A stretch of DNA of 64,000 nt from a virus: the IMG/VR virus record IMGVR_UViG_3300006750_000006, positions 1 through 64,000 of that record; one strand, written 5' to 3'. Position 1 is the stretch's first letter. Each line of letters opens with the position of its first letter. Of the stretch, positions 3 to 8,524 are shown piece by piece. The notes below the pieces were generated by a model, which searched no databases, was not told the origin of the DNA, and was given only the letters and a program-made list of their open reading frames with translations. Position numbers and translations under genes: made by a program.

Positions 3-731
3 ATGATCATCTCACACAAATATAAATATATTTTTATAAAGCCAATGAAAGTTGCGGGCACTAGTGTACAAGTGGCTTTGGGACAAAATTGTGATGCAAA
101 TGATATATTCTCTCAAGGTGGCTCTTACGATCCACAGGGTTCTTATGGTAACGCATGTGCTAGAGAATTTTATAAAAATAGAAATAGCATCGTTCCTAGT
201 ATCATTATTGAAAATAATTTACGTGGCCACACTAAACCTGATGAAATCAAAAAAGCAATAGGAAACAAAATATGGAATGATTATTGCAAAGTTACTATAA
301 TCAGAAATCCTTGGGATATGTGTATTTCTCGTTTTTGGTATGCTCCTCCTCCGCAGCGCTGTCCTCGGCTTCGAACAGAAAGAGTTTTGTGGTTACAAGA
401 AAATTTTGAAAATCGTGAGGGAGTCAATAAGCGATTTAGAGAAGCTATTATGGAAAATCCAAAAATGAATAAAATCTATTATTTCAACAAAAACAAACCT
501 ATTGCCAATGTTTATTTGAAATTTGAAAATTTACAAAATGATTTTAATAATTTTTCTGATAAACTTGGAATTCCACAAGTTAGAAATTTTCCGCATAAGA
601 AATCACAATTTAGATTAGATAAGAGACATTATTCAACTTATTATGATGATGAAACAAGAGATTTGATTGCGAAAGAATATAAATATTATATTAAATATTT
701 TGGATATAAATTTGAAAACAAAAAACTATAA
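3..731 (+). CDS. Sulfotransferase-like protein
   Basis: Probably transfers a sulfuryl group from PAPS to a sugar or other acceptor. The N-terminal stretch KPMKVAGTSVQVAL (about residues 14-27) matches the 5'-phosphosulfate-binding loop of Golgi-type and bacterial sulfotransferases, which often reads PK.AGTS. A second stretch, VTIIRNPWDMCISRFWY (about 97-113), matches the 3'-phosphate-binding segment (RNP..R..S). At 242 residues it is a compact single-domain enzyme with no signal peptide, so it should act in the host cytoplasm. It is followed by a glycosyltransferase, a second sulfotransferase-like gene and an APS kinase that could supply its donor. The ATG lies two bases into the window, so an upstream extension cannot be excluded. 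Its last codons lie in a 44-bp tandem duplication. The acceptor is unknown. Confidence 0.8.
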   Translation: MIISHKYKYIFIKPMKVAGTSVQVALGQNCDANDIFSQGGSYDPQGSYGNACAREFYKNRNSIVPSIIIENNLRGHTKPDEIKKAIGNKIWNDYCKVTIIRNPWDMCISRFWYAPPPQRCPRLRTERVLWLQENFENREGVNKRFREAIMENPKMNKIYYFNKNKPIANVYLKFENLQNDFNNFSDKLGIPQVRNFPHKKSQFRLDKRHYSTYYDDETRDLIAKEYKYYIKYFGYKFENKKL

Positions 732-798
732 AAGGATATTAAGATGAGTATAAATTTGAAAACAAAAAACTATAAAAGGATATTAAGATGAGTATAAA
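705..798 (+). repeat. 44-bp perfect tandem duplication at a gene junction
   Basis: Bases 705-748 are repeated exactly at 749-792, and the first six bases (TATAAA) recur at 793-798. The unit holds the last codons and stop of the sulfotransferase gene, the ribosome-binding site and the first codons of the next gene. The TATAAA at each edge suggests slippage between short direct repeats. The duplication leaves both flanking reading frames intact but creates an extra start site at 744. Confidence 0.97.
744..791 (+). CDS. Duplication-derived 15-codon mini-ORF
   Basis: This frame starts at the ATG in the first copy of the 44-bp duplication and has the same AAGGA-type ribosome-binding site as the downstream glycosyltransferase. 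It reads through the second copy as MSINLKTKNYKRILR and stops in an ATGA overlap with the glycosyltransferase start at 788. It is probably an accidental product of the duplication, but it could couple or reduce translation of the next gene. No function is implied. Confidence 0.4.
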   Translation: MSINLKTKNYKRILR

Positions 799-1681
799 AG
801 AGGAAGTTGGTTTAGATTATTTTGATCATATATATGTAATAAACCTAGATCGATGTAGAGATAGAAAGCAACATATTATTGAAGAGTTTTCTAGAGTTGG
901 TATAAGTGATTACGAATTTTTTTCGGCATCTGATAAATCTTCATCAGAAGTTATTGAGATGTATAAATCTGGTCGTGTTAAACGATTTCCACCATGTTTT
1001 AGATGCGGCGAGAATAGTTGCGACCATGAAAACAATATTGTAATACCTGAACAAGTTGGGAATTGGTGTTCATTTATTAATCTTATGAAGGATATTATTA
1101 AAAATAATTATAAACATGTTTTGATATGTGAAGACGACGTAAAATTTGCAGAGCACTGCAAAACTACATTTGATAGATTTATTAATTTGAAAAATTTTAA
1201 AAAATACAATATTGATTTAAATAAGCCAATATTGATAAGATATGAACGTAGAAGTAGGAGAATTCATTGGCCACCAGTTTTTGGTTATCTTAAGAGAAAG
1301 ATAAATGAACGATTCAAACTTTGGCGTTCTCGCAATCCCGGGCCAGTCTTCATCCCTAGGCCCATATATTCAAATGCTTGTTTCTCTGTTAACAAACAAT
1401 ATGCAGAATCATTTTTAAAATATTTACCAGAAATAAAATACGCTAGCGATGGTTATATACAGGTTGATATTCTCAATAAAGACCCATCAATTCAACATTT
1501 CACTGTATTACCTGCGCCGGCATATCAGTTATCAGATCATGAGTTTCCTCAAATGCGCTCAGAGATTATCCCTAGGGGGTATAATGAAGCTGATATAATT
1601 AGGAAAGCTAATCACACTAAAGGAGTTAAATCTAAAGAAGAATATGATACTCTTTTTAATAAATGGATAAACAATGAGTAA
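788..1681 (+). CDS. Glycosyltransferase, family-25-like
   Basis: Probably transfers a sugar to a glycan, as family 25 (LPS/procollagen galactosyltransferase-like) enzymes do. The start of the fold, YVINLDRCRDRKQHI (about residues 16-30), matches the family's VINLDR..R signature. VLICEDDVKF (about 110-119) is the acidic motif expected to hold the metal-nucleotide sugar, preceded by an EQVGNWCSF segment resembling the usual GEIGC.LSH region. A cysteine-rich insert (PCFRCGENSCDH, about 77-88) could bind a metal and is not typical. The length of 297 residues is normal for the family. The ATG follows AAGGATATTAAG within the duplicated 44-bp unit. The frame overlaps the next sulfotransferase by eight bases, so the two are probably translated together. 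Confidence 0.85.
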   Translation: MSIKEEVGLDYFDHIYVINLDRCRDRKQHIIEEFSRVGISDYEFFSASDKSSSEVIEMYKSGRVKRFPPCFRCGENSCDHENNIVIPEQVGNWCSFINLMKDIIKNNYKHVLICEDDVKFAEHCKTTFDRFINLKNFKKYNIDLNKPILIRYERRSRRIHWPPVFGYLKRKINERFKLWRSRNPGPVFIPRPIYSNACFSVNKQYAESFLKYLPEIKYASDGYIQVDILNKDPSIQHFTVLPAPAYQLSDHEFPQMRSEIIPRGYNEADIIRKANHTKGVKSKEEYDTLFNKWINNE

Positions 1682-2210
1682 AGTTTTTTGTATAGGTATG
1701 TTTAAAACCGGCACAACTAGTGTTGGAGTAGCAATGAAGATACTGGGTTATCAAACAACTTATAGCTTCTGGGGCTTAAAAGGATTCGATTATTGGTTGG
1801 AAGATAAATCAACTTATAAAAAATATCATTCAGTTGTCAAACAAAGAGCAAACAAATATCAAGCTTTTGCAGATTCTCCATGGCTGTTTTTATATAAGGA
1901 ATTAGATATATGGTTTCCCAATAGCAAATTTATTTTAACGTTGAGAGAGACTCCTGAAGATGTCGCAAGAAGCGATATCAACATGTGGGAAAAATTAGGA
2001 AAACCTAACGCTCCTTTAGCTGAGAAGTTTGTTGAAAGATATAATAAACATAATCAGGAAGTTCGAGAATATTTTAAAGATAGGTCAGATTTGTTGGAAG
2101 TGTGTTTCGAAAAAGGCGAAGGTTGGAAAAAGATTTGTAATTTCTTAGAAAAGCCTGTTCCAGATTTCCCTTTTCCACATGCAAACAGGGGAACATACAA
2201 AAATGAATAA
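1674..2210 (+). CDS. Short sulfotransferase-family protein
   Basis: A second PAPS-type sulfotransferase candidate. FCIGMFKTGTTSVGVAM (about residues 5-21) matches the G..KTGTTS 5'-phosphosulfate loop, and SKFILTLRETPEDVARS (about 83-99) corresponds to the 3'-phosphate segment (ILTLR.P...S). At 178 residues it is shorter than most members, so some acceptor-side structure is reduced. It overlaps the glycosyltransferase stop and is followed after 73 bases by an APS kinase. It is more like the KTGTTS-type bacterial family than the first gene, so the two are not a recent duplication. The acceptor is unknown. Confidence 0.78.
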   Translation: MSKVFCIGMFKTGTTSVGVAMKILGYQTTYSFWGLKGFDYWLEDKSTYKKYHSVVKQRANKYQAFADSPWLFLYKELDIWFPNSKFILTLRETPEDVARSDINMWEKLGKPNAPLAEKFVERYNKHNQEVREYFKDRSDLLEVCFEKGEGWKKICNFLEKPVPDFPFPHANRGTYKNE

Positions 2211-2283
2211 TAAAAAATTATAAATTTAAAAAATAAATAAAAATCTAGTATTATAGATAAGGATAAATAACAAATTACTTTTA
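2211..2283 (+). other. AT-rich gap before the APS kinase gene
   Basis: This 73-base gap is almost entirely A and T. It contains GATAAATA about 15 bases before the next ATG, which resembles the T4 late-promoter octamer TATAAATA with one change. No hairpin with a T-run is visible. The promoter reading is weak because such octamers are common in AT-rich DNA. Confidence 0.3.
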
Positions 2284-2994
2284 ATGATTGATTCTACAAA
2301 AAGAACTTTTAGTAAGGCCATTAGCTGGAAAACTAGTGGATTTTTAATACTCTCGGCGCTAGCCTATATTATAACTGGATCCTTAAAAGACACCTCGATC
2401 ATTGCAGCTGTTTACCACGTTATTATGCTTATTTTTTATTATTTTCATGAAAAGATATGGAATAGGATTCTTTGGGGCAAAACTTCTGGTTTATTTATAC
2501 AAATGACTGGTTTATCAGGTTCTGGCAAAACAACGATTGCAAGAGATGTTGAAAAAAGATTAAAAAATCGTGGTTTAAAAGTAGAAATAATTGACGGAGA
2601 CGAATATCGAGAAGGCATATGTAGCGATTTAACTTTTTCAAAAGAAGATCGCAACACAAATATTCGTAGACTGGGATTTGTTGGAAAAGTATTGGCAAGA
2701 AACAATGTTGTTATAATTATGTCTACTATAAATCCTTATGATAATATACGCAAAGAACTAAAAGAAATCCATGGAGCAAGAACAATTTTTATCGATTGCT
2801 CGATCGAGGAATGCATTGAGCGAGACATAAAAGGTTTATATAAAAAAGCTCTTTTGGGAGAAATTAAAAACTTTACAGGTATTTCAGATCCTTTTGAGGT
2901 ACCAAAAGACGCTGATTTGGTAATTAAAACGGATAAATTAAATATCAAAAAATCAGCTGAATTATTAGAAAAATTTATATTAAAGCAAATATAG
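2284..2994 (+). CDS. cysC: Membrane-anchored APS kinase (DUF2061-APS kinase fusion)
   Basis: Phosphorylates adenylylsulfate (APS) with ATP to give PAPS, the donor used by sulfotransferases. Residues 1-64 form a DUF2061-like segment with two hydrophobic helices (around WKTSGFLILSALAYIITG and IIAAVYHVIMLIFYYFHEK), implying inner-membrane attachment. The kinase domain follows: P-loop GLSGSGKTT (about 76-84), DGDEYREGICSDLTFS (about 102-117), RNTNIRRLGF, and near the end GLYKKALLGEIKNFTGI and DPFEVP, all typical of CysC. The usual FISP..ADR segment is replaced by MSTINPYDNIRKEL, so catalysis needs testing. No ATP sulfurylase is visible, so APS would have to come from the host. The context suggests it feeds the two sulfotransferases upstream. 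Confidence 0.93.
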   Translation: MIDSTKRTFSKAISWKTSGFLILSALAYIITGSLKDTSIIAAVYHVIMLIFYYFHEKIWNRILWGKTSGLFIQMTGLSGSGKTTIARDVEKRLKNRGLKVEIIDGDEYREGICSDLTFSKEDRNTNIRRLGFVGKVLARNNVVIIMSTINPYDNIRKELKEIHGARTIFIDCSIEECIERDIKGLYKKALLGEIKNFTGISDPFEVPKDADLVIKTDKLNIKKSAELLEKFILKQI

Positions 2995-3013: not shown

Positions 3014-3208
3014 ATGCTTAAATTATCAGATGAAGCCCTCGGGGCCCTTATGATGGCCCTACAGAAATCTTTATTGGAACAATCAGATATTGTTCCTGTG
3101 TTGAAAGGATTTGAATTCAAAATTAATGAAAACAAAGAATTATTTGTTATGAACCCACCAATTGTTAATTATGGTAATGCCAATCTTGAGCCTTTTGAAG
3201 AAGAATAG
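3014..3208 (+). CDS. Small conserved-type phage protein, unknown function
   Basis: A 64-residue acidic protein whose first half (LSDEALGALMMALQKSLLEQ) predicts an amphipathic helix; the rest is mixed and ends in EPFEEE. It has a strong AAGGAG ribosome-binding site eight bases before the ATG. Its stop overlaps the GTG start of the next gene (TAGTG), so it opens a tightly coupled run of small genes ending in the late sigma factor. I do not recognise a family. Confidence 0.8.
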   Translation: MLKLSDEALGALMMALQKSLLEQSDIVPVLKGFEFKINENKELFVMNPPIVNYGNANLEPFEEE

Positions 3209-3468
3209 TGCCCAAATATCGCTATAAGTGTGAAAGTTGCGAATTTATTTTCTTTGCGCACCATTCAATTTCTAAACTTTTAAAAGATTGCGAATATTGT
3301 GATACAAACGATTCTTTGACTAAGTTGCCCACTAGTTTTAGATTGATAGAGGACGTTGAGCGTGAAATTTCAACTGGACAAATCGTTAAAAGGTCAATTG
3401 AAGAATTTCGTGAAGACTTGAAAGAAGAAAAAAGACGCTTAAAGGAGAGAAAAGAGGATGTTAAATGA
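3208..3468 (+). CDS. FmdB-type zinc-ribbon protein
   Basis: Starts at a GTG inside the previous stop (TAGTG). The N-terminus, PKYRYKCESCEFIFFAHHSI, followed by CEYC around residue 28, has the CxxC...CxxC layout of FmdB-like small zinc ribbons, which usually begin with a P.Y.Y.C..C pattern. The C-terminal half (from about residue 50) is highly charged and likely helical (EEFREDLKEEKRRLKERKED). Such proteins occur in many phages without a proven job; nucleic-acid or protein binding is plausible. It overlaps the next gene by four bases. Confidence 0.75.
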   Translation: MPKYRYKCESCEFIFFAHHSISKLLKDCEYCDTNDSLTKLPTSFRLIEDVEREISTGQIVKRSIEEFREDLKEEKRRLKERKEDVK

Positions 3469-3866
3469 ATAAATATATTTTAGGGTTAAGTATAGTACTT
3501 AATGGGATACTATTGATAGTACTATTTGGTTTAGTGCCTTTTTTACTGTATTTGAGCACACTTATTAATATCTTTTTTGTTTGGTTTATCATAAAAAATC
3601 TTAACGAGATGGATGACATAAGAGAAGATTTACTTTATAATTTGGAATCGATTGAGTCTTTTTCTGATCATTTAGACCAATTACATGAAATGGAGGCATT
3701 TTATGGAGATCAGACATTGCAAGATTTAATTGGCCACTCTAGAAGAGTAATTAACGATATAGTGGATTTACAAGAAAAATATTATGATGTTGAAACAGGA
3801 ATAGAAACATATGACAATGATAATGAAGAAACCGAAGAGGAAGAGACGACCGAGGCGCAAGAATGA
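3465..3866 (+). CDS. Small membrane protein with acidic tail
   Basis: A 133-residue protein with two hydrophobic stretches between about residues 4 and 44 that probably form a helical hairpin in the inner membrane. A helical, coiled-coil-prone region follows, then a strongly acidic tail (YDNDNEETEEEETTEAQE). It starts in an ATGA overlap with the zinc-ribbon gene, and its last 56 bases overlap the start of the sigma-factor gene in another frame. I do not recognise a family. Confidence 0.75.
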   Translation: MNKYILGLSIVLNGILLIVLFGLVPFLLYLSTLINIFFVWFIIKNLNEMDDIREDLLYNLESIESFSDHLDQLHEMEAFYGDQTLQDLIGHSRRVINDIVDLQEKYYDVETGIETYDNDNEETEEEETTEAQE

Positions 3867-4524
3867 ATATTTTACTAAAGTACACGAGAAAGCAGTAATA
3901 GACTACGCGTTATCGGATAGTAAAGCAGTACGAACCACTCTTTATGTTGAACTCCTGGCACCAGCTTTCAACGAGCTGGTTGATAAAATTGTTTATACCT
4001 ATAAATTTAATAATCTCCCCAATATAGATTATTTAAAAGACGACTGTAAAATTTGGCTAATGACAATTTTGGATAAATATGATCCAGAAAGAAAGTCAAA
4101 AGCCTTTTCATATTTTAGTGTTATAACTAAAAATTGGTTTATTCACCAAGTAAAGCAAAATTCTAAAAAATTAAAGAGAGATGTTCAGTATGAAAACTTG
4201 GGAGCAGACTCGACAAGAAAAGAATTAATAGTACACAATGAATACGAACAAAACAGAGAACAAGCAGAATTTTGGTTACACTTGTGGAAAGAAATGGAAA
4301 GTTGGCAAAAATTAAAACTCAAAGAAAGTGAAAAAAAAGTATTAGACGCAATAAAAATTCTTTTTGAAAGTGTGGACGAAATTGAAATTTTTAATAAAAA
4401 AGCTATTTATCTATACATGCGAGAAATAACTGGCATGAATACAAAACAAATTGTTAATAATTTGAATCGTATTAGAAAAAGATATAGGAATTTTAAAAGC
4501 GAATGGGTAAAAGGAAACGTTTAG
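3811..4524 (+). CDS. gp55: Late-transcription sigma factor, T4 gp55-like
   Basis: Probably the phage sigma factor that recruits host RNA polymerase to late promoters. The central segment YDPERKSKAFSYFSVITKNW (about residues 90-109), followed by FIHQVKQNSKK, matches the region-2-like K.F.YF...... pattern of T4 gp55 proteins, with a helical C-terminal half and a basic N-terminus (KKPKRKRRPRRK). The length of 237 residues is slightly above T4 gp55. The start is uncertain: ATGs occur at 3811, 3817 and 3823, all inside the upstream gene. The C-terminus ends KSEWVKGNV and lacks the hydrophobic-acidic clamp-binding tail expected of T4 gp55. It overlaps the next small gene by 22 bases. Confidence 0.75.
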   Translation: MTMIMKKPKRKRRPRRKNEYFTKVHEKAVIDYALSDSKAVRTTLYVELLAPAFNELVDKIVYTYKFNNLPNIDYLKDDCKIWLMTILDKYDPERKSKAFSYFSVITKNWFIHQVKQNSKKLKRDVQYENLGADSTRKELIVHNEYEQNREQAEFWLHLWKEMESWQKLKLKESEKKVLDAIKILFESVDEIEIFNKKAIYLYMREITGMNTKQIVNNLNRIRKRYRNFKSEWVKGNV

Positions 4525-4802
4525 AATCACAAGAATATGTTGAGGAGGCAATTGCCAATATCAGAGACGATAGGGCAATTGCTTCGACTTTACTTATTGA
4601 CTTGATGAAAGTTCTAAAGGAAGATACAGCAAAACATCAATATTCTGGGCCCGTAGCAGCAAAATATCTAGAAACCTTACAGAGATCAAATGAACAACTG
4701 GTAAAATTAGCCTCTTTATTGGCTAAAAAAGAAAATGTCGATAGCAGCTTATCTTCAGTTGATAAATCTGAAATATATGATTTAATTAACGAAGATAATT
4801 AA
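4503..4802 (+). CDS. Small helical protein after the sigma gene, unknown
   Basis: A 99-residue, almost wholly helical protein with a basic N-terminus (MGKRKRLESQEY) and an acidic-hydrophobic end (VDKSEIYDLINEDN). It starts within the last codons of the gp55-like gene, so translation is probably coupled. The position and tail raise the possibility of a gp33-like coactivator or clamp-interacting partner, but there is no visible sequence match. A small terminase subunit is another guess of the same weak kind. Confidence 0.7.
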   Translation: MGKRKRLESQEYVEEAIANIRDDRAIASTLLIDLMKVLKEDTAKHQYSGPVAAKYLETLQRSNEQLVKLASLLAKKENVDSSLSSVDKSEIYDLINEDN

Positions 4803-4813
4803 GGATTAAATAA

Positions 4814-7800
4814 GTGGGAACAAAACCATGGAAAGTACATGAGGGATTCAGTGGCCACGAGTTTAACCCTCTTAGCGATTTTGCTTACACTGAAGCTTAC
4901 AATAGTGACGTCCCAATAACTGATTTAGTTGCTAGGCTTTTTAAAGATAAATATGAATACGATCTATTGTCTAGTACCGGTACTGGTCCTCACTTAGCAG
5001 TAGTTCTTAAAGTTTTATCTGGCCCACAAGCAAAAACCCACTCACCAAATATTATTACAAAAAGCCTGCTTAAGGCACCTGAGGCTCTTTCCCTGTTAGA
5101 TAACTCGGCGCGCCTAAGATTAAAGCCTGGACCAGTAAGAGTGATAGCAAAAGTTCCCAATATTCACCAGATGCCATGGCCATCAGGTATAGAAGATGAA
5201 TTTGGTATTTCTTTGTTTCCAGAGTTTGTTGCTTCAAAACAAATAGAACATGATTCTGCCATGGCAAAGATCACAGAGGGCGCCCTGGTCTGGGTTGATC
5301 TTTCAGCCCCGACTTCTAAAACTGGTATACTTATTGGCTTACATGATACGAATTTTATAGCCAAAATAGAAGAAGCCAAATCAGCTTCAAAAGCATTTGA
5401 TGATACATGTACGCTTCCTAAAGTGTGCGCACCATCGGAAGTAGAAAATTTATATGCCGGCTCAACTTCACATAAATTTAAGTTGACGGGGCCCCCTATT
5501 CGAAAAGTAAAGGGAAAGATTAAAACTGGTATGTATGGTGACGGCTTTGAGCAAACAAAATCACATTTTGATGAGTGTTTGAAACATGCTGGTATCTCTT
5601 TTAAGCATAGTATTGCCGGCCCAACACCAGATTCAAAAAATGCTTTTGTTTGGGTTGGCCATTTAAATGGCAATGGCGCCAATGATCTTGTTGATCGTCC
5701 ACCTGGTCCTGGGCGCGAAACAATTATTTATGCTTCAAAAACACTGGACATAACGTCTCCGATCGAAATAAAATATTATTTTCATGATATTGCCGGCTTT
5801 GGTTTCCCCTGGATCAACGGTCCAGAAACAACAGTAGCAGAGGCTAAAAGTAGTGCGAAGATAGCTAATAATGATTTAAGAATGAAAGTAGCAGCAAATT
5901 TAAAAGACCTAATACGTGATGGTCGTAATTTTGTTCTTGTCATACCGGAAATGCTGTATTCAAGGGGGTTTGGAACAAAACTAGGAGATGTAAAAAGAAT
6001 AAAAAATTACACAAAATGTTCAACAGTTCCCCGGGGCGAAACTACAAAAATTGATTTGATTAGGACAAATATGGAGTCCGTCGCGAATAGAAAAGCAATT
6101 CCAGTGATTAAAGATTATCTAGACAGTATATCTGATAATAAAATATCAGGATTTATAGAAAAAGAAAGAGTTATCAAGACGTTTGTTGATAGTGGAGATT
6201 TAAATATATTTCACAACGAGATTATTGAAGTATTACAACAATATATATATAAAAATATAGCAGAAAATATTGAATATGTTTCGATTTTGGCAGAAGGGGC
6301 TGGCGCGCTCTCTCTTGCCGGATCGTTGCCTTTGGTTTATGATATTCCCCTCAACAGGATAGATTTTGTTCCGAATGGTTTTGATGAGGTGGACAGATAT
6401 TCATTTTTTGATTATAGTAATATATCTGAACCAGAAGCAGAAGTATTGCGCAATATACCGTCATACGTTCTTTATAAATTGTTTATAGAACCAAGTGCAA
6501 AAAAAGATTTAGAATTTAATTATATTGTCGATGATGCAGCATCTTTTATTCCATTAGATTTCGGTGGCGGCCCGGGCTCCAAACACTTTTTTGACCTCTT
6601 AGGGAGAGAAACAGAGTTTGTTAAAAATTTCAAGCAAGGGGGCTCTGGTGCCGAAAAGAAATTCGATTTTTGGGTCAATAATAATATAAATAATAATACC
6701 TCTATATCCTGTTACGTCGGCGGCAAAAAAAGACTTGATTATACTTTTAGTATGATAAATAAAATAAATGCGCCTCATAAATCTGATACTATTCCAAAAG
6801 TGGGAATGGATTATGTTCCCAATCATGCTCAAAATATTTCAGCTAAACAAAAATCTGCAGCAGCTAGCAATTATAATATAAAAATAGAACAATATAAAAA
6901 GAAGGCGGCCAAATTCGAAGAAATGTTGTTCGCTCTCGCTACCGGGGGATTAAATAGTTTATGCAAGATATCCAAATATAAAGTTTATTGTACAGATATT
7001 GGTTCAAATTCTTATATATTAAAATATGGTGAAGAATCTATGTTTCACAGGCTTTATAATAATTATTTGCATGCTAAAATAGAAATTCCAAAATTAGAAC
7101 AATTGAAAGAAGGACATGTAATTTTAGTTGAGGCCGGCAAGGATAAAGTTCTTATTGACACGCGTCTTAAAGAATATGAAGATTTATTAAAAACAATAAA
7201 AGCCAACCTTGAGCCAGCTAAAGCTGAATTAGCAAAATTACAAATTTTTAAACCTGGCTTTTTCAATTCAGCTCAAACTGTAGGTACTTTAGGAACTATT
7301 TCAAGCGCCTCCGATCTTGTGGGCCGCCAAAATGCAGTAGAAGATATAATTAAGAGATTAAAAGGCAAACAAAAATCAGCAAATCCCGATTGTTCTTTAC
7401 CTGAAAAGTGCAGATCCAAACCAACACCCTTGGGTGAATTCAGTAGCGCCGGCGTTGAACTTCTAGAGCCTAGTCTTTTCAACTGCGAGGGCTCTCGTGT
7501 TCAGGTAGTTAAAAAATTTGATATATTAAGTGAGTGGATTCCTTATTATCCCAAAAAAGATGATTTTACTTTTGAGGGCCAAACCAGCGTATATGGCAAA
7601 ACTTCTTCTAAAAAAGTAGATATGAAAACAAAGGTTCCAGATTTTAAAACTGCCACCTTCAAATATAAAGTACGACGTGGCAGGGGAGTTGTCAGAGAAG
7701 AAACAAGTCCACCAGTATGGTCATGCGTTGCACCTATTTTTAAAGAAGCGTACGCCGCGGCCTGTGAGGCATCAAATTATATACCTTTTAAAATTGCAAG

Positions 7801-8524
7801 TGGCATAAAAAATGGTTATGCTGAGTCTGGCACGTTTGTATCTTCATACGGATTATCAATCAATATCGATCCCTTCATCGCGCCGTACACTAGATCTATT
7901 ATGAGTCATAGTGTTTTTACTGGCGCCTGGACTCCCGGGATAGGTGATGATGAATTTTTAACTTTTATGGGAGTTTTTAAGCTCGGCGCCGAATTTAACG
8001 CTAAAAATATGTATGACCGCGTTCCAAATTATCTTCCTGGAGTAGATGTTCACGGCGAGGTAACGCATGGCAATTTACAGTCTCTTGGTTGGCGAAGAAA
8101 AATGGAGAATTTAAATGGTAACTCCGCCCAGGGAATCCCAACTGCAGAAACTCCAGCTGCAGCAGAATTAGAAAAATATTTAGTAAACCAGAAATTGGCT
8201 GGCCAGTGCAAAGGAAATTATATTGTGCCACCAGACGCCAATCCAACATTATGGGCAATTGTGTTTTGCGAAAAATCCGGTGCGAAATGGGGGAATAGTC
8301 AATTTCTGAAACGAAAACAAAATGGTGGTGTCTGGACAAACGCTGAGAAAAGATTTATAGCTGATAAATATGGCATTGACAATGTTGTTGGGAGGGTGAG
8401 AAATATTTCGTGGCCTGTCAATACTTTTGATAATCATAGTTATTTTCAATTTTGGTCCGGACCGCCCCTTGTTCCTTGGGATCATATTAAAAAAATAGCG
8501 GAAGCAAAAGGTATAAACCAGTAG
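4814..8524 (+). CDS. Large virion protein, probably baseplate hub region
   Basis: A 1236-residue protein starting at GTG with AAGGA eight bases upstream. I recognise no enzyme family with confidence. The N-terminal 200 residues are beta-rich and include LKPGPVRVIAKVPNIHQMPW and a turn-rich ALVWVDLSAP stretch that could be an OB-like hub domain. A middle block (about 375-395) contains RNFVLVIPEMLYSRGFGTKL, and around residues 685-850 a long helical segment lies beside a serine/glycine-rich region. Cysteines are scattered. It precedes a spike-like gene and a giant virion gene, followed by gp25 and gp6 homologues, so a baseplate or central-hub role is inferred from position only. An embedded peptidoglycan hydrolase cannot be excluded. 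Confidence 0.6.
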   Translation: MGTKPWKVHEGFSGHEFNPLSDFAYTEAYNSDVPITDLVARLFKDKYEYDLLSSTGTGPHLAVVLKVLSGPQAKTHSPNIITKSLLKAPEALSLLDNSARLRLKPGPVRVIAKVPNIHQMPWPSGIEDEFGISLFPEFVASKQIEHDSAMAKITEGALVWVDLSAPTSKTGILIGLHDTNFIAKIEEAKSASKAFDDTCTLPKVCAPSEVENLYAGSTSHKFKLTGPPIRKVKGKIKTGMYGDGFEQTKSHFDECLKHAGISFKHSIAGPTPDSKNAFVWVGHLNGNGANDLVDRPPGPGRETIIYASKTLDITSPIEIKYYFHDIAGFGFPWINGPETTVAEAKSSAKIANNDLRMKVAANLKDLIRDGRNFVLVIPEMLYSRGFGTKLGDVKRIKNYTKCSTVPRGETTKIDLIRTNMESVANRKAIPVIKDYLDSISDNKISGFIEKERVIKTFVDSGDLNIFHNEIIEVLQQYIYKNIAENIEYVSILAEGAGALSLAGSLPLVYDIPLNRIDFVPNGFDEVDRYSFFDYSNISEPEAEVLRNIPSYVLYKLFIEPSAKKDLEFNYIVDDAASFIPLDFGGGPGSKHFFDLLGRETEFVKNFKQGGSGAEKKFDFWVNNNINNNTSISCYVGGKKRLDYTFSMINKINAPHKSDTIPKVGMDYVPNHAQNISAKQKSAAASNYNIKIEQYKKKAAKFEEMLFALATGGLNSLCKISKYKVYCTDIGSNSYILKYGEESMFHRLYNNYLHAKIEIPKLEQLKEGHVILVEAGKDKVLIDTRLKEYEDLLKTIKANLEPAKAELAKLQIFKPGFFNSAQTVGTLGTISSASDLVGRQNAVEDIIKRLKGKQKSANPDCSLPEKCRSKPTPLGEFSSAGVELLEPSLFNCEGSRVQVVKKFDILSEWIPYYPKKDDFTFEGQTSVYGKTSSKKVDMKTKVPDFKTATFKYKVRRGRGVVREETSPPVWSCVAPIFKEAYAAACEASNYIPFKIASGIKNGYAESGTFVSSYGLSINIDPFIAPYTRSIMSHSVFTGAWTPGIGDDEFLTFMGVFKLGAEFNAKNMYDRVPNYLPGVDVHGEVTHGNLQSLGWRRKMENLNGNSAQGIPTAETPAAAELEKYLVNQKLAGQCKGNYIVPPDANPTLWAIVFCEKSGAKWGNSQFLKRKQNGGVWTNAEKRFIADKYGIDNVVGRVRNISWPVNTFDNHSYFQFWSGPPLVPWDHIKKIAEAKGINQ

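Follow-up and report, generated by a model that had tools for sequence, protein, structure and literature searches.

Why would a phage encode its own adenosine 5'-phosphosulfate (APS) kinase, and encode it next to two sulfotransferases and a glycosyltransferase? This question is raised by the beginning of a 64,000-nucleotide stretch of viral DNA (hereafter the window), which comprises bases 1-64,000 of the 67,445-bp virus record IMGVR_UViG_3300006750_000006. Between positions 3 and 2,994, the plus strand encodes a sulfotransferase-like protein (ST-A), a family 25 glycosyltransferase (GT25), a second sulfotransferase (ST-B), and an APS kinase of the CysC type that is preceded by a DUF2061 domain. 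A first-pass annotation made from the letters alone had placed four open reading frames (ORFs) of these types here, and our gene calls and Pfam searches agree with it in position and domain type. It had interpreted them as a compact module in which the kinase makes 3'-phosphoadenosine 5'-phosphosulfate (PAPS), the sulfate donor, so that a glycan could be glycosylated and then sulfated. As a whole, this interpretation is partly supported. We consider it probable (roughly 0.75) that the kinase makes PAPS from APS in order to sulfate a phage-built glycan, and not for sulfate assimilation.

Association of the kinase with sulfotransferases

The proposed logic of a donor-making enzyme combined with transferases is borne out across viral records. 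Our sample started from 35 virus loci with a relative of the kinase; the records of 34 of these (without the short fragment L035) and the record of the window gave 35 kinase-bearing records, which were searched over their whole length. Any match to PF03567, PF13469, or PF00685 at E ≤ 0.001 was counted as a sulfotransferase. As a control, we took the best 80 of 585 loci recruited via the sigma factor of the clade, irrespective of the kinase, which was found in three of them. From the 77 loci without it, we selected 50 with a long flank upstream and searched the complete record of each; the long-flank loci L169, L176, L181, L182, L183, and L186 were left out of this sample. One of the 50 (G053) has a kinase elsewhere and was removed, leaving 49 kinase-free records.

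A sulfotransferase was present in 25 of the 35 kinase-bearing versus 9 of the 49 kinase-free records (Fisher p = 1.3e-6), and after merging of kinases at 95% identity the ratio was 18/26 versus 9/49 (p = 2.8e-5). Resolved by family, PF03567 matched in 11, PF13469 in 15, PF00685 in 15, and PF17784 in 3 of the 35 kinase-bearing records; for the 50 control records the numbers were 7 (PF03567), 0 (PF13469), and 4 (PF00685). The association is also local: the nearest sulfotransferase lies no more than 10 kb from the kinase in 23 of 24 positive records, where random placement would give 6.9, and the median distance over the positive records minus the window's own is 2.2 kb.

Phage APS kinases have been reported from environmental viruses before (PMC10914622, PMC9529941, PMC8190135), where viral cysC is assigned to assimilatory sulfur metabolism, unlike in our reading; the term "sulfotransferase" is absent from the main text of all three. 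As a classical auxiliary gene of this kind, phage CysC would boost the reduction of sulfate to sulfide and cysteine in the host, and the sulfotransferases would be unrelated neighbors. Such a role fits poorly with an association that is both strong and local and with glycan genes as neighbors. Furthermore, PF01507 (CysH/CysD) was over its cut-off in 0 of the 35 records, which are possibly fragments (two matches were sub-threshold). We therefore regard a role in sulfur assimilation as unlikely, if the best surviving of the alternatives. This result includes the CysD type of ATP sulfurylase and the window record, with the Sat type (PF01747) not searched record-wide and the genome incomplete. Since no CysD/CysH-type match was over cut-off, it is plausible that the APS is host-derived, as had been proposed.

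The kinase branch also has bacterial members. We scanned genomes with a pair of short peptide patterns as guides, which is not a census, and obtained 65 loci, almost all of them from Bacteroidota and, by title, four from Acidobacteriota. A sulfotransferase-like ORF was detected in 41 of the 65 with a local profile whose final round took it abruptly from 7 members to 41. Pfam searches with ten of the bacterial neighbors matched nine to a sulfotransferase family at E ≤ 0.01, three of them over and six below the cut-off; the tenth, an ORF of L048 outside the 41, is a phosphopantetheinyl transferase. At L106, a sulfotransferase-like gene (4.6e-25) directly adjoins the kinase. Hence, this branch of the kinase often keeps company with sulfotransferase-like genes in bacteria, too.

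The DUF2061-APS kinase and its relatives

The kinase gene (positions 2284..2994, plus strand) encodes a 236-aa fusion protein, assigned on the basis of Pfam, TIGR00455, and the nearest solved structures. Residues 11-60 (2314..2463, plus strand) match DUF2061 (PF09834, 8e-11, 42.7 bits; cut-off 23.1), and the hydropathy of this part is that of a membrane segment, with two hydrophobic stretches at about residues 19-34 and 37-54. The APS kinase domain follows at residues 69-215 (2488..2928, plus strand; PF01583, 5.3e-51, 173.1 bits; cut-off 21.1). A kinase with a membrane segment had been noticed in the first-pass annotation, and this architecture recurs: DUF2061 is present in 20 of the 35 viral kinase loci, and it is fused to or adjoins the kinase in further relatives. 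Loss of the P-loop or of catalytic motifs was looked for, and the motifs were found intact; P-loop, DGDxxR, DRxxN, NPY, KGLY, and FTG are all present (a choice of motifs taken in part from aligned relatives).

In Campylobacter, a CysC homologue acts in O-methyl phosphoramidate synthesis as a cytidine diphosphoramidate kinase, and the window kinase could likewise act on a nucleotide other than APS. A nucleotidyltransferase is a neighbor in 24 of the 35 viral loci and a HAD hydrolase in 12 of the 35, and the best-matching solved kinase has an ISPY motif where the window kinase has INPY, all of which would fit this idea. But the protein passes the curated equivalog model TIGR00455 (183.7 bits; cut-off 138.7), its closest solved structure is the "Probable adenylyl-sulfate kinase" 5cb6/5cb8 (E = 3e-45), and the solved structures listed as matches are adenylyl-sulfate kinases, PAPS synthases, and other sulfate-activation enzymes. 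Together with the association with sulfotransferases, this makes a different nucleotide substrate improbable, slightly more so than a role in assimilation. In the narrower subfamily PRK00889, the kinase stays below the cut-off (204.3 versus 244 bits).

Among named phages, the kinase found matches in five records, none of them covering more than 80% of the query. In a tree from which the rows L263 and L092 had been removed as long branches, viral kinases including that of the window form one set of 30 rows (Shimodaira-Hasegawa-like approximate likelihood ratio test, 96), and a second viral set is separate. An independent recruitment of two kinase lineages was considered, but a single clade of all viral rows is allowed (p = 0.79 in the approximately unbiased test) and this claim is not made.

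Other fusions were seen among the bacterial relatives. L056 (8001-8744) encodes an APS kinase with a C-terminal DUF2061, the reverse of the order in the phage protein. L065 (7986-9488), from Sphingobacterium, fuses an APS kinase to a PhyH-type dioxygenase domain; the proteins of L091 and L105 are of similar length, and L065 was the one scanned for domains.

The transferases and the glycan island

The two other sulfate-related genes flank the glycosyltransferase gene. GT25 (788..1681, plus strand, 297 aa) matches PF01755 at 5.1e-15 (56.3 bits; cut-off 24) and has an EDD motif that is kept across three aligned sequences. The end of its gene overlaps by 8 bp with the start of that for ST-B (1674..2210, plus strand, 178 aa), a clear Sulfotransfer_4 protein (PF17784, 2.3e-32, 113 bits; cut-off 22.8) that also matches sulfotransferases in the PDB at 4e-8. 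Relatives of ST-B with 47-51% identity are found on the virus contigs L038-L040, with the kinase absent from the fetched stretch.

ST-A (3..731, plus strand, 242 aa), a Sulfotransfer_2-like protein, is the weakest identification among the four genes. In a six-frame search with PF03567, its region stayed below the cut-off in the window record (19.4 bits) but exceeded it in a second contig that overlaps the window (23.1 bits; see below). PHROG 3347 ("Galactose-3-O-sulfotransferase") was matched at 6.7e-9, and the Arg-Asn-Pro...Ser (RNP...S) block of its relatives, which we take to be a PAPS-site block, is kept in the alignment. An AlphaFold model (mean predicted local distance difference test score 72.8) retrieved proteins of the sulfotransferase fold, namely sulfotransferases and retinol dehydratases, in 46 of the 50 best Foldseek rows. 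These matches are weak, with a best E of 3.7e-3, so that none reaches 0.001, and with template modeling scores relative to the query of 0.26-0.50 over these 50 rows. Neither ST-A nor ST-B has a match among named phages.

A glycosylate-then-sulfate unit, as had been suggested, gains support from a single gene in another virus. In IMGVR_UViG_3300023210_000015 (L302), one frame of 647 aa (6001-7944) combines Sulfotransfer_2, GT25, and Sulfotransfer_4 in the same order as in the window. The fusion protein is 28% identical to ST-A in its residues 1-184, 30% identical to GT25 in the middle, and 31% identical to ST-B at the end. A search for relatives of this fusion returned its own contig alone. At L222, consecutive genes encode a HAD protein, a nucleotidyltransferase, two Sulfotransfer_2 proteins, and a GT25; the kinase of the same record is about 53 kb off.

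The window begins at base 1 of its record, a contig edge, and the locus is therefore truncated there. A second contig, IMGVR_UViG_3300025072_002582 (the overlapping contig), is identical to the window record over 8,991 bp and runs on upstream. Upstream of the set it encodes a CTP_transf_like protein, an epimerase, a methyltransferase, unassigned proteins, and a sub-threshold match to NTP_transf_3. A GT2 protein, a two-domain protein with GT1-group and GT2 parts, and a GT4-type member of the GT1 group follow further upstream. The four genes thus close a glycan island of about 12 kb at its 3' end, and the idea of a compact, self-contained module had to be given up.

On the reading that we prefer, the DUF2061-APS kinase, which may sit at the inner membrane, would phosphorylate host-made APS to PAPS. 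GT25 would add a sugar to a glycan built with other genes of the island (GT4, GT2, epimerase, cytidylyltransferase-like protein, methyltransferase), and ST-A and ST-B would sulfate this sugar or its neighbors, probably at two positions. The membrane tether and the family to which GT25 belongs slightly favor a glycan of the host envelope over one of the virion as acceptor. Sulfotransferase families are broad, so the sulfate might instead go to a lipid, a small metabolite, a protein tyrosine, or a DNA base. Viral sulfotransferases have been counted among auxiliary genes (PMC8290583, PMC13079714, PMC10829341), and in the last of these papers viral transferases, sulfotransferases included, are suspected of modifying nucleotides or proteins. 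With GT25, GT4, GT2, an epimerase, and other sugar genes adjacent, and with both sulfotransferases fused to GT25 in L302, we consider such an acceptor about as improbable as a different kinase substrate.

How far is the set conserved? Searches of viral contigs recovered GT25 at one locus, ST-B at four, and ST-A at seven, and among the fetched stretches all four genes occur together in the overlapping contig only. A wider search for GT25 gave three loci, including the overlapping contig and the contig of L302. The closest approach is the record G002 (L003, L311), with a DUF2061-kinase, two matches to Sulfotransfer_2, and one to Sulfotransfer_4, but no GT25 according to our own profile. Around its kinase (L311 5482-7512, L003 2-8380) lie sulfotransferase-like ORFs, of which three are matched by Pfam and two more were recognized by eye. 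Co-occurrence in relatives, which the first-pass annotation had named as a check on the four genes, therefore splits into two parts: the exact set was seen in the phage's own population only, whereas the combination of kinase and sulfotransferase recurs in relatives. A compact four-gene system was accordingly rejected as a candidate, the set having been found in one population only and being part of a larger island. That the exact set was seen in one population could also mean that these are functionless remnants of host genes or host genes in decay, but this is very unlikely with ORFs and kinase motifs intact, two virus records identical here, and related kinases at 35 phage loci, many of which share the downstream flank.

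Several observations weigh against the sulfation of a phage glycan as the role of these genes. The four genes are not conserved as an exact set. Two of the three records with Sulfotransfer_4 (3/35) are the window's own and that of the overlapping contig, the latter also accounting for one of the two kinase loci (2/35) with a GT25-like ORF by our own profile. No kinase was found near the L302 fusion within the 21.9 kb read, and the PF03567 score of the ST-A protein is marginal (23.2 bits; cut-off 22). As for the association, the two compared record sets are phylogenetically non-independent, and window record and overlapping contig were both counted in the 35. Ten of the 35 kinase-bearing records are without a sulfotransferase match (in three, L017, L026, and L027, the contig ends close upstream of the kinase), and sulfotransferases are also present in kinase-free records (9/49). 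Finally, we infer the catalytic activity, the substrate, and the membrane placement of the encoded proteins throughout.

The window set can be compared to known systems. In rhizobia, NodPQ provides PAPS specifically to the carbohydrate sulfotransferase NodH, which sulfates lipo-chitin oligosaccharides; the likeness lies in the dedicated supply, and the difference in that NodPQ and NodH are bacterial and include an ATP sulfurylase. Marine T4-like phages carry accessory islands for lipopolysaccharide or other surface glycans, with glycosyltransferase and nucleotide-sugar genes, but the island described here has at its end a block for sulfation that brings its own APS kinase. In bacteria, PAPS genes together with sulfotransferases are described as the hallmark of clusters for sulfated polysaccharides (PMC11641403), and the hallmark set of a PAPS synthesis gene, sulfotransferases, and glycosyltransferases is present in the island. 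The sulfated-capsule cluster of Vibrio sp. KMM 8419 (PMC11641403) likewise unites a PAPS-making cysC, sulfotransferases, and glycosyltransferases in a polysaccharide cluster. Unlike that cluster, the window set is phage-borne, no cysND was found with it, its kinase is fused to DUF2061, and its sulfotransferases flank GT25. Among the matches listed for the open-licence literature, judged by titles and the beginnings of abstracts, no phage module of this kind is described, and none of the papers that mention DUF2061 is on phages, judging by title.

A linked nucleotidyltransferase and the phage genome

The nucleotidyltransferase mentioned above is a protein of 133 aa. It is found at 24 of the 35 viral kinase loci versus 0 of the 80 sigma-factor loci, and DUF2061 at 3 of these 80, exactly the three that hold the kinase. 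The protein has a match among named phages and is absent from the known sequence of the window phage. A reverse search covered the best 80 of 307 relatives of the nucleotidyltransferase, many of them on contigs already in the kinase sample. Of the 45 near loci, 40 have a strong kinase, and of the 35 distant ones, 34 have a weak protein resembling APS kinase; DUF2061 was present at 26 of the 45 and 21 of the 35, and a HAD hydrolase at 17 and 6, respectively, fused to the kinase in eight cases. Across L220-L263 and L264-L298, DUF2061, an APS-kinase family protein, a HAD hydrolase, and a NadM-like nucleotidyltransferase recur as a viral cassette, with a shorter kinase-like protein in the distant set.

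Five of the 65 bacterial loci (L043, L044, L045, L060, and L072) have the nucleotidyltransferase, in all five fused to the APS kinase. CysD is missing in 4 of the 5 genomes with this fusion versus 1 of 28 without it (p = 6e-4), a comparison confounded by phylum: the four genomes lacking CysD are Acidobacteriota and the others Bacteroidota (L106 is not in the count). All five fusion genomes are metagenome-assembled, and incomplete assembly perhaps contributes to the absence of CysD. In the phylum to which G085 belongs, 182 of 297 genomes surveyed had an APS kinase match, with a single match for G085 among the matches listed, consistent with the fused gene being the sole APS kinase of G085.

What this domain does was approached through its fold. 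A model of the nucleotidyltransferase has the fold of nicotinamide mononucleotide and phosphopantetheine adenylyltransferases (best 50 rows each of Foldseek and VIA-align). ATP sulfurylases are not among these best 50 rows, which excludes nothing. Against the ATP sulfurylase family PF01747, three of four stand-alone proteins scored 15.1-16.2 bits (cut-off 24.3) and the fourth was unlisted; one stand-alone protein scored 40.9 bits against the NadM model TIGR01527 (cut-off 181.2). PAPS synthase is a fusion of ATP sulfurylase to APS kinase (PMC11697783). The bacterial relatives that fuse APS kinase to an adenylyltransferase-fold domain resemble it, but their domain is small, NadM-like, and below the ATP-sulfurylase cut-off where tested, and it is not found in what is known of the window phage. 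We tentatively suggest that DUF2061, APS kinase, HAD hydrolase, and a NadM-like adenylyltransferase of about 130 aa might form a viral and bacterial cassette for sulfate activation, with the adenylyltransferase acting as a minimal ATP sulfurylase. For the role of a substitute ATP sulfurylase it is a reasonable but unproven candidate. If the cassette exists, the window phage retains the DUF2061-kinase part only and would therefore depend on APS from the host. No description of a cassette with a NadM-like adenylyltransferase was found in the open-licence literature, as far as the retrieved portions of its papers extend.

As for the phage itself, terminase, portal, baseplate, primase, and SbcC-like genes identify it as a distant T4-like phage. 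Among named phages, its portal protein is nearest to those of Microcystis phage Mel-JY01 and the Flavobacterium immuto phages (41-43% identity over 60% of the query). The glycan island lies directly upstream of a 3' flank (3014..4802, plus strand) common to many relatives, as delimited by gene calls, Pfam, PHROG, and locus comparison. This flank encodes a 64-aa protein, a Zn-ribbon-like protein, a 133-aa membrane protein, a gp55-like late sigma factor, and a 99-aa protein. In record G002, the glycan island with its own DUF2061-kinase is followed by the same small genes as in the window phage, and the PhoH-like and glycosyltransferase genes upstream (named by eye) resemble those of the window phage as well. 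A perfect 44-bp tandem duplication (705..792, plus strand) lies at the junction of ST-A and GT25, containing the end of the one gene and the start region of the other, and is identical in the overlapping contig. The late promoter motif TATAAATA has 16 matches in the window versus 9.2 expected (at least 16 in 4 of 100 shuffles); many are intragenic, and no conclusion on timing is drawn. The glycan island of another phage (L015, 1553-3415) encodes a 620-aa protein composed of NeuB, SAF, and a xylose-isomerase-like barrel.

Viral cysC has been counted in metagenome studies as a means by which phages steer sulfur assimilation (PMC10914622, PMC9529941, PMC8190135). In the phages of our sample, the gene neighborhood points to sulfate that is activated for sugars. 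If this is true, these genes shift from sulfur cycling to the surface chemistry between phage and host, that is, to receptor masking, superinfection exclusion, or virion coating. The L302 fusion of two sulfotransferases with a GT25 would allow the whole reaction to be studied in one polypeptide, and the NadM-like adenylyltransferase linked to the kinase may represent a type of ATP sulfurylase that has gone unrecognized.

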